NCBI GenBank assembly: GCA_017548485.1
Contig: JAFYZY010000189.1
Location: 1 to 37,086, forward strand
Direction: 5' to 3'
DNA length: 37,086 bases
DNA from: Oscillospiraceae bacterium
GTDB taxonomy: Bacteria; Bacillota; Clostridia; Oscillospirales; Ruminococcaceae
In this document: positions 29,096-33,128 of the stretch, piece by piece
Layout of the letters: each line of letters starts with the position of its first letter
Position numbering within the stretch: the first letter of the stretch is position 1
Notes under the pieces: model-generated
The model's input: the letters and a program-made list of their open reading frames with translations, nothing else
Told to the model about the DNA's origin: nothing
Database searches by the model: none
Position numbers and translations under genes: made by a program

Positions 29096-29989
29096 TCACT
29101 CGCAGAATCCCATCACCACTATGCCGGCCAGGGTGAAGAGAAGCGCGATGTAATGGCGTTTCGAGAGACGTTCCTTCAGGAATACCGCCGCCCACACACA
29201 GGACAGTACGCAGTAGGAACTGATGATCGGAGCAGAGGTGACCGGGTTGTCGTTGAGAGCCTTAACATAGGCTGCCTGCCCGGCGGTCTCGCAGAGGGCG
29301 CCGGAGAGCATCGGAAGTCCCTGATCCAGCGAGAATCTGGCTTTTCTGATGCAGAACAGATATATGAGTATCACCACTGCGCAGGCGAACCAGGTCAGTT
29401 CATATGCGCAGTTGGCGGAGTCCTCATCCATGCTGACTAGTATGGCGCTGTCGGCAAAGGTGCCGAGAGTGTCCAGCAGGCAGTAGAGGATAGGGAGGAT
29501 GAACGCCCTGATGTCCTTTTTATAGCTGCGTCCGGAGAGCTCCTGGCGTTTCATCCTTGACTCGTCGTCCTCTTTGGATTCTGCAACTCCGAGAAGGAAG
29601 ACTCCCGCGGTCACCAGGATTATTCCGAGAGCCTGAAGAGCATCGACGGCTTCATGAAGAAAAATGAGGCAGAGGACAGCTGAGAAGGCTCCGGAGCAGT
29701 TGCAGATGGGTGATGAGACAGACAGTTCTATGTACCGGAGCCCAAGATAGCCTATGACCATGGACAGGATATATAGGGCGGAAGCCGGAAGATAGTGTAT
29801 CAGATCAGATAAAGTGACGGTCGCTTTTCCAGTGAGTATCATGGCAAGAGCATGAAAGCCCATCACGAATCCGACAACGACGGAGATCTTGAGGTGCGAA
29901 TCCAGATCGCCCTCTTTAGCTCCTACCTTGGTGAAGATGTCGGATCCGCTCCAGAAAAGAAGCGCTAACAGAGACATAACGAACCACAT
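29096..29989 (-). CDS. EamA/DMT-family transporter
   Basis: 297 residues with about ten hydrophobic segments in two repeated halves, typical of EamA drug/metabolite transporters (for example SLLALLFWSGSDIFTKVGA in the first and GALCETAGQAAYVKALN in the second). The ATG at 29989 opens directly into the first membrane helix; the longer upstream frame would cross the promoter. The substrate cannot be inferred. The gene diverges from the acyltransferase-like gene across an inverted repeat. Confidence 0.87.
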   Translation of the reverse strand: MWFVMSLLALLFWSGSDIFTKVGAKEGDLDSHLKISVVVGFVMGFHALAMILTGKATVTLSDLIHYLPASALYILSMVIGYLGLRYIELSVSSPICNCSGAFSAVLCLIFLHEAVDALQALGIILVTAGVFLLGVAESKEDDESRMKRQELSGRSYKKDIRAFILPILYCLLDTLGTFADSAILVSMDEDSANCAYELTWFACAVVILIYLFCIRKARFSLDQGLPMLSGALCETAGQAAYVKALNDNPVTSAPIISSYCVLSCVWAAVFLKERLSKRHYIALLFTLAGIVVMGFCE

Positions 29990-30000
29990 TTGTTTGACCG

Positions 30001-30048
30001 CCTGTAATATAATTGCTTTGGAATGATCAACAGAATTGATATTACAGG
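30001..30048. promoter_or_regulatory. Inverted repeat in the divergent eamA/acyltransferase intergenic region
   Basis: CCTGTAATATAATT (30001-30014) and AATTGATATTACAGG (30034-30048) are inverted copies: 10 bp perfect, plus 4 bp after a one-base offset. Arm centres are about 34 bp apart, near three helical turns. The right arm overlaps the minus-strand -10. A repressor operator is the simplest reading. Confidence 0.5.
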
Positions 30049-30067
30049 AAACAGGTCCCGAGTTCAA
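30039..30067 (-). promoter_or_regulatory. Promoter of the EamA gene
   Basis: On the minus strand TTGAAC (30067-30062), 17 nt, TAATAT (30044-30039). The leader to the ATG at 29989 is about 43 nt. Confidence 0.7.
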
Positions 30068-30102
30068 GTTGGACGGGACCTTTGCGATACGGAGGTACGT
30101 CT

Positions 30103-31371
30103 TTGAAAACAAAAGTCAAGAATGCGACATATGACGAAGTTATGGCGCTTCCGAGACAGCCGCACAAACTGCCGCAGAAGCCGGGAATGCTGTTCAGGAC
30201 GCTCATGAGAGTGCTGGGAGCTCCGGATCTGAAACAGACGGGCTTCACGTTTACCGAGAAGGATATGGAGCGGGCCGGCGACGGGCCGTGGCTGATCCTC
30301 ATGAACCACTCCGCTTTCATAGATCTCGAGATCGCCGCAAGGATACTTTACCCGCGTCCTTACTGCATCATCTGCACTTCCGACGGATTTGTCGGAAAGG
30401 ACTGGCTGATGAGAAAACTCGGCTGCATCCCGACTCAGAAGTTCGTCAGCGACATCACTCTTATACGCGATATGCAGTATACCGTCGACGAGCTCAGGAC
30501 CAGCATACTGATGTACCCGGAGGCGAGCTATTCGTTCGACGGGACTGCGACTCCGCTTCCAAGAGGTCTCGGAGTTCTCGTCAAGAGGCTCGGAGTCCCC
30601 GTGGTCATGATAAAGACGGAAGGCGCTTTCGCGAGAGATCCTCTCTACAACTGCCTGCAGAAGAGAAAGGTCAAAGTCTCCGCTGAGGTCAGCTGTCTGC
30701 TGGACAGGGAGCAGATATCGGAGCTCGGGCGCAAAGATATAGAAGCGGTGCTGGACGAAGCGTTCACGTTCGACAATTTCGCCTGGCAGAGAGACAACAA
30801 AGTCTCCATAGTTGAGCCCTTCCGCGCCGACGGCCTGGAGCGGATAATGTTCAAATGCCCTCACTGCGGAGCAGAAGGTGAGACGAAAGGCGAGGGAACG
30901 GTCCTCAGATGCGCGCACTGCGGCAAGGAATGGTCCATGGACGAGTTCGGACAGATGCACGCGTTGGAAGGCGAGACGGAGTTCTCTCATGTTCCGGACT
31001 GGTATGCGTGGGAGAGAGAGGAGGTCCGCAGGTCGCTCCTGGACGGGACGTATCTCCTGGATACGGACGTCAGTATCGGGATGATGGTGGACCACAAGTA
31101 CATCTATATGGTCGGAGACGGCCATCTGACGCACGATGTGAACGGATTCAGGCTTACAGGCTGTGACGGGAAACTGAACTACGAGCAGAGACCTCTTGAG
31201 TCGTACAGCCTGTATTCGGATTATTTCTGGTATGAGATCGGCGACGTGATATGCATCGGAAACAAAGACTGCCTATATTACTGCTTCCCGAAGAAAGACG
31301 GAGTGGTGGCTAAGACCAGGATAGCGGCAGAGGAACTGTACAGGATCTGTGACCCAAAGAACCGCAGATAA
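30103..31371 (+). CDS. PlsC-like acyltransferase with internal zinc ribbon and C-terminal domain
   Basis: 422 residues, starting at TTG 30103 with GGAGG 7 nt upstream. The N-terminal part has the glycerolipid acyltransferase motif HX4D (NHSAFID; H69, D74) and a block III-like YPEAS at 138-142. Around 252-273 is a zinc ribbon, CPHCG...CAHCG (C252, C255, C270, C273). A C-terminal region of about 145 residues follows, rich in aromatics (DVSIGMMVDHKYIYMVG...), with no recognised motif. The protein could acylate lysophosphatidate or a related acceptor; no membrane helix is obvious. The extra domains are unlike ordinary PlsC. Confidence 0.78.
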   Translation: MKTKVKNATYDEVMALPRQPHKLPQKPGMLFRTLMRVLGAPDLKQTGFTFTEKDMERAGDGPWLILMNHSAFIDLEIAARILYPRPYCIICTSDGFVGKDWLMRKLGCIPTQKFVSDITLIRDMQYTVDELRTSILMYPEASYSFDGTATPLPRGLGVLVKRLGVPVVMIKTEGAFARDPLYNCLQKRKVKVSAEVSCLLDREQISELGRKDIEAVLDEAFTFDNFAWQRDNKVSIVEPFRADGLERIMFKCPHCGAEGETKGEGTVLRCAHCGKEWSMDEFGQMHALEGETEFSHVPDWYAWEREEVRRSLLDGTYLLDTDVSIGMMVDHKYIYMVGDGHLTHDVNGFRLTGCDGKLNYEQRPLESYSLYSDYFWYEIGDVICIGNKDCLYYCFPKKDGVVAKTRIAAEELYRICDPKNRR

Positions 31372-31435: not shown

Positions 31436-31807
31436 TTATTCTGCTGCCCAGAGTCCGTGGAGGTTGCAGTATGCAACGCAGGTGACGACTTCGTCTTCCG
31501 GAAGGACGGCGAATCTCACCACGGGATCGCTGCCGGGCACGAGAAGCTTGCGCTGGTTGCCTGTGGTGGTCTGGAGAGCTACCCACTTGATGTAGTGCTC
31601 TTCCAGCATCGGATGGGCGACTGAACCGACTGTTACGGTGACGACATCGCCTTCCCGTGTCACGACGGGGACATGCTTTTCAACAGCGGCGTCGGTGGTG
31701 CCGGGGACGATCTCTTCCATCGGTTTTCCGCAGCACATAACATCGCAGCCGGGATGCTCTGCGTAGGCGATGATGTTTCCGCACATCGGGCATCTGTAGA
31801 ATTTCAT
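31436..31807 (-). CDS. dfx: Desulfoferrodoxin (superoxide reductase)
   Basis: 123 residues. Centre I, a rubredoxin-like Fe(Cys)4, is C6, C9, C25, C26 (CPMCG...CC). Centre II, the catalytic Fe(His)4Cys, is seen in EKHVPV, VAHPMLEEHYI and CVAYCNLHGLW. It reduces superoxide to hydrogen peroxide without making oxygen. Last gene of the perR-rbr-trx-dfx operon, so its product peroxide can be handled by the rubrerythrin encoded just upstream. Confidence 0.96.
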   Translation of the reverse strand: MKFYRCPMCGNIIAYAEHPGCDVMCCGKPMEEIVPGTTDAAVEKHVPVVTREGDVVTVTVGSVAHPMLEEHYIKWVALQTTTGNQRKLLVPGSDPVVRFAVLPEDEVVTCVAYCNLHGLWAAE

Positions 31808-31823
31808 GTGTCTCTCCTTTGTC

Positions 31824-32132
31824 TTATCTGTACTGCGCGATAAGGGAAAGCAGCTCCGCTTTTTCCCTGTATCCTGATACGCGGTTTATTTCTTTCCCGT
31901 CCTTGAAAAAAACGAGTGTCGGGATGAACTGGATGCCGTATCTGACGGCAAGCTCTCTCTCCTCGTCCACGTTGACTTTTCCGAGGGAAAGATCTGTTTC
32001 GCTGACGATCTCCTCGAGGATCGGGGCGATCATCTTGCAGGGGCCGCACCATGTGGCCCAGAAATCGACCACGGTGAGCTCGGGAGAGCTCACGGCGCTC
32101 TCAAAGTTCTGAACAGTTAGGACCTTTTCCAT
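31824..32132 (-). CDS. trxA: Thioredoxin
   Basis: 102 residues with the redox site WCGPC (C29, C32) in TVVDFWATWCGPCK and the cis-proline loop FIPTLVFFKDG. The start at 32132 is chosen because GGGAG lies 6 nt upstream; the longer frame runs into rubrerythrin. In this operon it may reduce oxidised target proteins after peroxide stress. Confidence 0.95.
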   Translation of the reverse strand: MEKVLTVQNFESAVSSPELTVVDFWATWCGPCKMIAPILEEIVSETDLSLGKVNVDEERELAVRYGIQFIPTLVFFKDGKEINRVSGYREKAELLSLIAQYR

Positions 32133-32151
32133 TTTTTGCTCCCTGAACCGA

Positions 32152-32682
32152 TCAGCCTTCGCCGACCACTTCGAAATATGCCTGGGGATGAGCGCAGACG
32201 GGGCAGACCTGAGGGGCTTCTGTGCCAACATGGATGTGTCCGCAGTTGCGGCACTTCCAGATGACTACTCCGTCTTTCTTGAAGACTTTTCCGTCTTCCA
32301 GATCCTTCAGGAGCGCGAGATAGCGCTTCTCATGCTCTTTCTCTATTGCGCCGACGCCTGCGAAGCGGGCGGCGATATCGTCGAATCCCTCTTCCTTCGC
32401 TTCGTTGGCAAAACGGACATACATGTCTGTCCATTCCTCGTTCTCGCCTGCGGCTGCAGCCTTGAGGTTCTCAGCTGTCGTGCCGATTCCGCCGAGGTAC
32501 TTGAACCAAAGTTCTGCGTGCTCTTTTTCGTTAGCGGCTGTCTCGGTGAATACGGCAGAGATCTGCTCATATCCTTCCTTCTTGGCCTTGGATGCAAAAT
32601 AGGTGTACTTGTTCCTGGCCTGGCTCTCTCCGGCAAATGCTGCCTGGAGGTTCTTCTCGGTCTTGCTTCCCTTGAGTTCCAT
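32152..32682 (-). CDS. rbr: Rubrerythrin
   Basis: 176 residues. An N-terminal ferritin-like diiron four-helix bundle carries the Glu/His ligands in [36 protein letters not shown] and [11 protein letters not shown]-terminal rubredoxin domain has [10 protein letters not shown] and [11 protein letters not shown]. It reduces hydrogen peroxide to water with NAD(P)H-derived electrons, a standard anaerobe defence. AAGGAG precedes the ATG at 32682. Second gene of the operon, after perR. Confidence 0.97.
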
Positions 32683-32710
32683 TAGTATTCTCCTTTTTAA
32701 TATGATAGGC

Positions 32711-33085
32711 TCACGCCCTGTTAACTCGGTTACGACATTCGGGGCACAGGTGTTCGGCCACGATATCCGCTTTTGTAAGGGTGTCTCCGGCGATGCGGCG
32801 AAGCTCATCCATTATCGCCGTGTCTTCTATATCCTCGATCTTACCGCATTCCGAGCATATGAGATGTCCGTGTGGATGCGGCGTGCAGTCGTAAACGGAA
32901 GAGCCGTCTGAAAGGACCAGTCTTCCGATCTCTCCTTCGTCGAAGAGCCTGCCTAGATCACGGTATACCGTTCCGAGCGAGATGTTGGGGATCTGTTCCT
33001 TTGCGCGCTCAAATACCTGAGCCGCGGTCATGTGGCCCCGGGATCCTCTGAGTATCTGCAGGACCAGTTCCTTCTGTCTGCTCAT
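32711..33085 (-). CDS. perR: Peroxide-responsive repressor PerR (Fur family)
   Basis: 124 residues: winged helix ([25 protein letters not shown]) and metal-binding dimer domain. The regulatory-metal residues fall at H18, D66, H72, H74 and D85, with exactly the spacing of B. subtilis PerR H37, D85, H91, H93 and D104; Asp at the last position is the PerR rather than Fur form. Structural zinc cysteines: C77, C80, C114, C117. ATG 33085 has GAGGG upstream; an ATG at 33109 would leave almost no leader. First gene of the operon it probably represses. Confidence 0.9.
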
Positions 33086-33100
33086 TGTGACCCTCAAATC

Positions 33101-33128
33101 AGTAATCATTCCTAATACTAATGATACT
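33101..33128. promoter_or_regulatory. Candidate PerR operator
   Basis: Imperfect inverted repeat AGTAATCATT (33101-33110) / AATGATACT (33120-33128), AT-rich like PER boxes but with a wider spacer than the consensus 7-1-7. It covers the perR -10 and start site and lies in the -35 zone of the divergent TPR gene. Confidence 0.5.

Follow-up and report, generated by a model that had tools for sequence, protein, structure and literature searches.

The closest described system is the PlsC of Thermotoga maritima (5kym), which shares with the protein described here the fold of residues 28–234, the HX4D catalytic pair and the Pro-Glu of motif III. In contrast to PlsC, our protein has no EGTR sequence and carries a zinc ribbon followed by a predicted PH-like tail. 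The structural match begins at residue 42 of 5kym, and the N-terminal part before this position, which forms the membrane helices, has no counterpart in our protein. GPAT1 and the plastid GPATs (8e4y, 1iuq) have the LPLAT fold in common with it and differ in their accessory parts. Another comparison is offered by the Aas-type acyl-[ACP]-phospholipid O-acyltransferases (NF006386), whose acyltransferase part is weakly matched by two paralogues of the same genome (types C and D below); these matches are far below cut-off, and both paralogues lack the fused ligase. In the open literature, preprints and most subscription papers aside, we found no PlsC-type acyltransferase that carries either a zinc ribbon or a PH domain. 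A published genome survey found 433 bacterial genomes, besides Rickettsia, without PlsB, PlsX and PlsY, and concluded that more glycerol-3-phosphate (G3P) acyltransferases await characterisation (PMC5615194).

Results

Gene and domain layout

The window, that is, the whole stretch of 37,086 nucleotides that was analysed, contains at 30103–31371 (+) a single open frame of 422 residues. It belongs to type A of the four paralogue types (A–D) considered below, and its features are:

30091–30095 (+): ribosome-binding site GGAGG, read in the sequence, 7 bases 5′ of the TTG start
30103–31371 (+): ribbon-tailed acyltransferase gene, type A, 422 residues; TTG start, stop at 31369–31371
30184–30804 (+): PlsC/LPLAT fold, residues 28–234 (VIA-align to 5kym; PF01553)
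30307–30324 (+): catalytic HX4D, H69–D74 (HSAFID), with His and Asp invariant in 66 aligned rows
30517–30543 (+): motif III, residues 139–147, PEASYSFDG, where PlsC 5kym has PEGTR (alignment comparison)
30847–30936 (+): zinc ribbon CPHC-x14-CAHC, residues 249–278 (four invariant Cys; sub-threshold ribbon profiles)
30991–31041 (+): linker helix with DWYxWER (W300 invariant), residues 297–313 (alignment, model)
31042–31368 (+): PH-like domain, residues 314–422, seven strands and a C-terminal helix (predicted structure, fold matches)

The TTG at 30103 coincides with the alignment position of the first codon in most type A homologues. An EamA-type transporter gene (29096–30112, −) is divergent from the acyltransferase gene and overlaps it; its called start is probably too far upstream, since the protein starts later in two loci of the genus.

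A sequence-only reading of this DNA had proposed a PlsC-type catalytic part, a built-in CX2C-CX2C zinc ribbon, an unassigned C-terminal part and no obvious membrane helix, and all four points held. In a Pfam scan, PF01553 (Acyltransferase) matched residues 60–168 with 32.6 bits (cut-off 23) and was the only family above cut-off, in agreement with the HX4D pair and the PlsC fold. Zinc-ribbon models matched residues ~250–278, every one of them below cut-off (best 19.5 bits, cut-off 30.8). The protein did not match any NCBIfam model above cut-off; NF006386 gave no match in this search, and neither TIGR00530 (PlsC/AGPAT) nor the PlsY profile PF02660 matched at E up to 10. We found no membrane helix in the window protein, whose Kyte–Doolittle mean over 19 residues peaks at 1.33. 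This mean exceeds 1.6 in 7 of 66 family rows, including L004 from the window genome (at residue 23); five of the seven rows belong to types B, C or D, so the N-terminal helix of some paralogues may be hydrophobic after all.

A conserved family of ribbon-tailed acyltransferases

From 109 relatives found in a scan of genome contigs, 80 loci were retained. These are mostly from Clostridia, with some titled Treponema or other spirochaetes and a few under other titles, which are names of metagenome bins and may be wrong; one locus, from Oscillibacter valericigenes An860, bears the title of an isolate. The CxxC pair was present in 106 of 107 distinct homologous protein rows, with a ribbon span of 22 residues in 105 rows and 21 in L008. 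The 107th row is the first half of L040, where an in-frame stop lies between the acyltransferase and the ribbon and the second half carries the ribbon; this type A gene (L040, 6001–7275) contains either a natural break or a sequencing error. The alignment took 66 of the 107 rows, and in all of them C252, C255, C270, C273, H69, D74, P139, E140, W300 and G338 are invariant. Given the CxxC pair in 106 of 107 rows and these invariant residues, the order of acyltransferase and ribbon is neither chance nor a gene fusion: two joined genes are ruled out, and the ribbon-tailed acyltransferase is a conserved family.

In a tree, 33 of the 66 aligned rows were split from 12 stand-alone PlsC rows by one branch with a support of 100/100. 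Because the stand-alone rows were selected by a pattern requiring EG[TS]R, the motif they show does not count as independent evidence; none of these rows came from L164 or L165, and L168 gave one of two. L004 forms a long branch of unsure placement. By hhalign, the tails of types A/B and type C are homologous (probability 96.9). Other copies included a truncated type A gene of 316 residues immediately 5′ of a full copy (L024, 4419–5366) and a type A gene inside which an IMG/VR contig with phage-like genes begins (L173). Viral carriage was rejected: L173 is the only such relative, and since its gene is truncated where the contig with phage-like genes ends, this is probably the host flank of a prophage.

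Predicted structure of the catalytic domain and the tail

The AlphaFold2 model of the full-length protein had a mean pLDDT of 93.3 and a pTM of 0.90. Residues 28–234 aligned with 5kym by VIA-align with Z 16.2 (193 residues, rmsd 2.8, 13% identity), and Foldseek matched the catalytic part to the PlsC fold with E 8.4e-7. The next matches were GPAT1 (8e4y, Z 13.8) and a plant plastid GPAT (1iuq, Z 13.1); absence of a family from these tables does not exclude it. The ribbon strands are modelled at 261–264, 267–270 and 276–279.

Regarding the 144 residues after the ribbon, the C-terminal part of 62 members matched nine Pfam families, each in 1–2 members, with a best E of 0.0092, which is not convincing, and no PH-like Pfam family was among the matches. 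The tail sequence had a single match among solved structures (E 0.51). In the full-length model, residues ~314–422 adopt a predicted PH superfold with Exo84 as top match (Z 9.8), and the tail modelled alone (pLDDT 92.9) gave Exo84 1zc3 with Z 10.7 over 103 residues, as well as many PH, EVH1, PTB and Ran-binding domains, with a Foldseek probability of 1.00 and a best E of just 1.3e-3; both models share method and sequences and hence are not independent. Seven strands and a C-terminal helix are common to the modelled tail and the domains of Exo84 (1zc3/1zc4), MTMR6 (2yf0) and SSRP1 (6l1r), matched by the tail alone with Z 10.7, 9.7 and 8.9. These domains are eukaryotic, have varied ligands and show 8–14% identity to the tail. 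From the models, the PH superfold can be assigned with good confidence, but not its ligand, and a PH-like fold is no proof of lipid binding, as PTB, EVH1 and Ran-binding domains are among the top matches.

Ribbon-tailed paralogues and phospholipid genes in the genus of the window

The window genome (90.9% complete) contains four family members, which are all its PF01553 matches. Across nine genomes of the genus, which are 54–94% complete, we did not find PlsX (0/9, compared with 18/18 others), PlsY (0/9, compared with 4/4 relatives of the order) or FabF (0/9). CdsA was present in 7 of the nine and in 4/5 others. In six of them (G000, G001, G002, G003, G005 and G008) the PF01553 proteins found, 3–4 each, are all ribbon-tailed; the other three (G004, G006 and G007) have stand-alone PF01553 proteins besides ribbon-tailed ones. 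Beyond the genus, a stand-alone PF01553 protein in a frame <300 residues occurs in 31 of 32 relatives, the exception (G024, 55% complete) having no PF01553 match. Taking completeness as an independent detection chance, plsC would be missed in all six genomes with a probability of 2e-5 and plsX in all nine with 8e-7, figures that serve as a guide only because related assemblies are not independent.

Among the paralogues, type B was found in 9/9 genomes of the genus, type C in 8/9, type D in 7/9 and type A in 6/9, types C and D being assigned by score and match range and only some of the genes being placed in the tree. In G003, neither type A nor a stand-alone PlsC was found. With this distribution, type A is unlikely to be the sole essential enzyme; as candidates for phosphatidic acid synthesis, types B, C and D are to be preferred to type A, whose motif III reads PEASY in place of EGxR. 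TIGR00530 is weakly matched by the type C (33.8 bits) and type D (48.9 bits) proteins of the window genome, against a cut-off of 102.95.

PF00501 ligases are present in 9/9 genomes of the genus. Three were scanned (G000, G002 and G004), and their best matches were long-chain-fatty-acid-CoA ligase models with scores below the cut-offs, so that we infer their substrate. An acyl-CoA-ligase-type gene is flanked by two stand-alone PlsC genes in G004 and G006, and adjoins one in G007; this arrangement suggests that the genus activates imported fatty acids as acyl-CoA. The G004 locus (L124, 7043–10085) is a compact cluster of phosphatidic-acid genes, which may serve imported fatty acids. Further PF00501 ligases are present in the remaining six genomes, but no stand-alone PlsC was seen in them. 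As PlsX, PlsY and FabF were not found and the PF01553 proteins of these genomes are all ribbon-tailed, some ribbon-tailed proteins may use scavenged fatty acids to make phosphatidic acid.

A stronger form of this idea is that the paralogues jointly replace PlsX, PlsY and PlsC, with at least one acting as G3P acyltransferase and at least one as lysophosphatidic acid (LPA) acyltransferase. We regard it as a serious but tentative explanation. It is favoured by CdsA occurring in a genus where PlsX and PlsY were not found, by the six genomes with only ribbon-tailed PF01553 proteins, by the spread of types B, C and D and by the weak TIGR00530 matches of types C and D. However, type A is found in just six of the nine genomes and not in G003, the genomes are incomplete, an enzyme of another family could serve, and most other type A genomes have PlsC-like proteins outside the family, as described below.

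Wider association with fatty acid and PlsX/PlsY genes

FabF was scored as present on a strong match (best frame ≥154 bits; in pieces in G084) and as absent where there were only short matches <30 bits. Among relatives, it was present in 1/15 ribbon-bearing and 20/24 ribbon-less genomes (Fisher p 5e-6), counts that leave out G024 and G028 and place G010, G013, G025 and G031, with a weak PlsC-like match only, in the ribbon-less class. When the window genus was counted once, the difference was 1/7 versus 20/24 (p 0.002), and 1/5 versus 18/22 (p 0.017) for genomes ≥90% complete; no FabF was seen in 4 of the 24 ribbon-less relatives. PlsY was present in all six ribbon-less relatives tested (G010, G011, G013, G025, G026 and G028) and in five of six ribbon-bearing relatives outside the genus (G009, G022, G027, G033 and G039, not G035).

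We also analysed 50 further type A genomes drawn from the 80 loci, hand-picked for spread and leaving out L005–L007 of the window genus. Strong FabF was found in 16/50, PlsY in 31/50 and both in 5/50, counts that ignore kinship and in which genes missing from incomplete bins inflate the absences. At least 45 of the 50 have a PF01553 match in a frame <300 residues, not counting G069, whose single PF01553 match comes from the first half of the interrupted gene; four more have, among the matches listed, a PF01553 match of 75–104 bits in a longer frame. From the FabF and PlsY counts, the family tends to accompany departures from the standard fatty acid/PlsX/PlsY scheme, with no fixed loss. A rule that the ribbon enzyme means loss of FAS-II is ruled out by the 16 type A genomes with strong FabF.

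Catalytic motifs and the acceptor

The window protein has PEASY in place of the EGxR motif III of PlsC/AGPAT, and in the alignment with 5kym the Arg of EGTR stands opposite a Tyr. Among the 66 rows, motif III reads PEASY in 49, PEAGY in 2, PEARY in 8, PEARH in 1, PEGQT in 4, PEGQV in 1 and PEGST in 1. By type, A has EASY (49/51) or EAGY (2/51), B has EARY (8/8), C has EGQT or EGQV (5 rows) and D has EGST (1 row); EARH belongs to L097. No type has an Arg at the fourth place of the motif, the Arg of the PEARY and PEARH rows standing one place earlier than that of EGxR. In motif II, every one of the 51 type A and 8 type B rows has Lys at residue 113, while the five rows of type C and the single row of type D have basic residues at 111 and 112. 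Given these motifs, the acceptor may differ from LPA or be held differently. The fourth-place Arg of motif III is also missing from some eukaryotic lysophospholipid acyltransferases.

Type A could accordingly be a salvage or remodelling enzyme with a tafazzin- or LPGAT-like role, re-acylating scavenged or host lysolipids, which we consider possible but rather unlikely. The missing Arg in every type is consistent with such a role, as are the fold match of the catalytic part to 7zkq chain T (Z 12.6), which we take to be tafazzin, and the fact that type A usually occurs alongside other PlsC-like proteins. Transporter genes offered a further hint: MFS genes with no assigned substrate (L123, 6667–7998; L059, 4218–5804; L067, 4083–5672) lie beside one type D and two type A genes. 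The MFS gene is directly upstream in both type A cases, but 2 of 85 type A loci is a weak adjacency, and the two MFS proteins scanned did not match any lysophospholipid-transporter model; on this ground, a reading of the MFS neighbour as a transporter of this kind was rejected.

An acceptor outside the glycerophospholipids, such as a glycolipid or a surface polymer, would fit the non-PlsC motif III and the fold matches to PatA (Z 9.9) and LpxM (Z 9.0). We consider it improbable, as PlsC (Z 16.2) and GPAT1 (Z 13.8) are clearly better matches.

Gene neighbourhood and the role of the ribbon

We did not find a conserved neighbour gene across the 85 type A loci, the largest shared neighbour family being mixed ABC ATPases in 6/85 loci. 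The neighbourhood was thus discarded as a clue to function. Three treponeme loci have a P-type-ATPase-like gene directly upstream (L076, L078 and L082; L078 scanned), and three others have a NUDIX gene there (L072, L077 and L079; L072 scanned).

In the window, genes for desulfoferrodoxin/superoxide reductase, thioredoxin, rubrerythrin and a Fur-family regulator (31436–33109, −) are convergent with the acyltransferase gene. The superoxide-reductase neighbour recurs only in loci of the window genus, and a redox operon was ruled out on both grounds. The sequence-only reading had also suggested that the Cys-rich part may sense redox or metal state or recruit a partner, and had noted that zinc ribbons bind nucleic acid or proteins. 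That the tail is such a sensor or binds nucleic acid is very improbable: the adjoining redox genes and the RNA polymerase subunit ribbons among the nearest by sequence would suit it, but the Cys are invariant in loci lacking redox neighbours, residues 291–422 are acidic (16 K+R, 23 D+E) and the ribbon matches are below cut-off. Being invariant throughout the aligned family, the ribbon suits a structural element.

Discussion

On balance, from the invariant catalytic motif, the predicted folds and the gene content of the genus, we favour a reading of the window protein as a peripheral-membrane glycerolipid acyltransferase that belongs to the PlsC/LPLAT superfamily and works with imported fatty acids. 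We infer its chemistry from the catalytic pair: H69 and D74 would activate the hydroxyl of a lysolipid or glycerol-phosphate acceptor, to which the acyl chain would move from acyl-CoA (or acyl-ACP). The ribbon, together with the helix that contains W300, may act as a rigid joint that holds the PH-like domain to the catalytic domain. Together with the N-terminal helix, the PH-like domain could substitute for the N-terminal membrane helices of PlsC and dock the enzyme either to the membrane or to a partner. The family would serve bacteria in which the incorporation of imported fatty acids takes the place of the standard FAS-II/PlsX/PlsY route.

Several observations count against this explanation. 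The association with fatty acid genes is imperfect, as seen from FabF and PlsY in the 50 type A genomes and from the four ribbon-less relatives in which no FabF was seen, and neither the Gly nor the Arg of EGTR is present in motif III. In addition, no neighbour gene is conserved, and the N-terminal helix may be hydrophobic in some paralogues.

For the gut genus of the window, our tentative proposal is that this ribbon- and PH-tailed family took over phosphatidic acid synthesis: imported fatty acids would be converted to acyl-CoA and the paralogues would perform both G3P acylations, with PlsX, PlsY, stand-alone PlsC and FAS-II gone. If true, this would supply a G3P acyltransferase of the sort that hundreds of bacterial genomes are said to lack. 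The genomes concerned in the survey were mostly Actinobacteria and Bacteroidetes, so the family would answer the question for some Clostridia and not generally (PMC5615194). The window genus is such a case, with 3–4 candidate genes per genome, all of one family, in six of nine genomes. If borne out, the finding would pair a PlsC-fold enzyme with a PH-like module.
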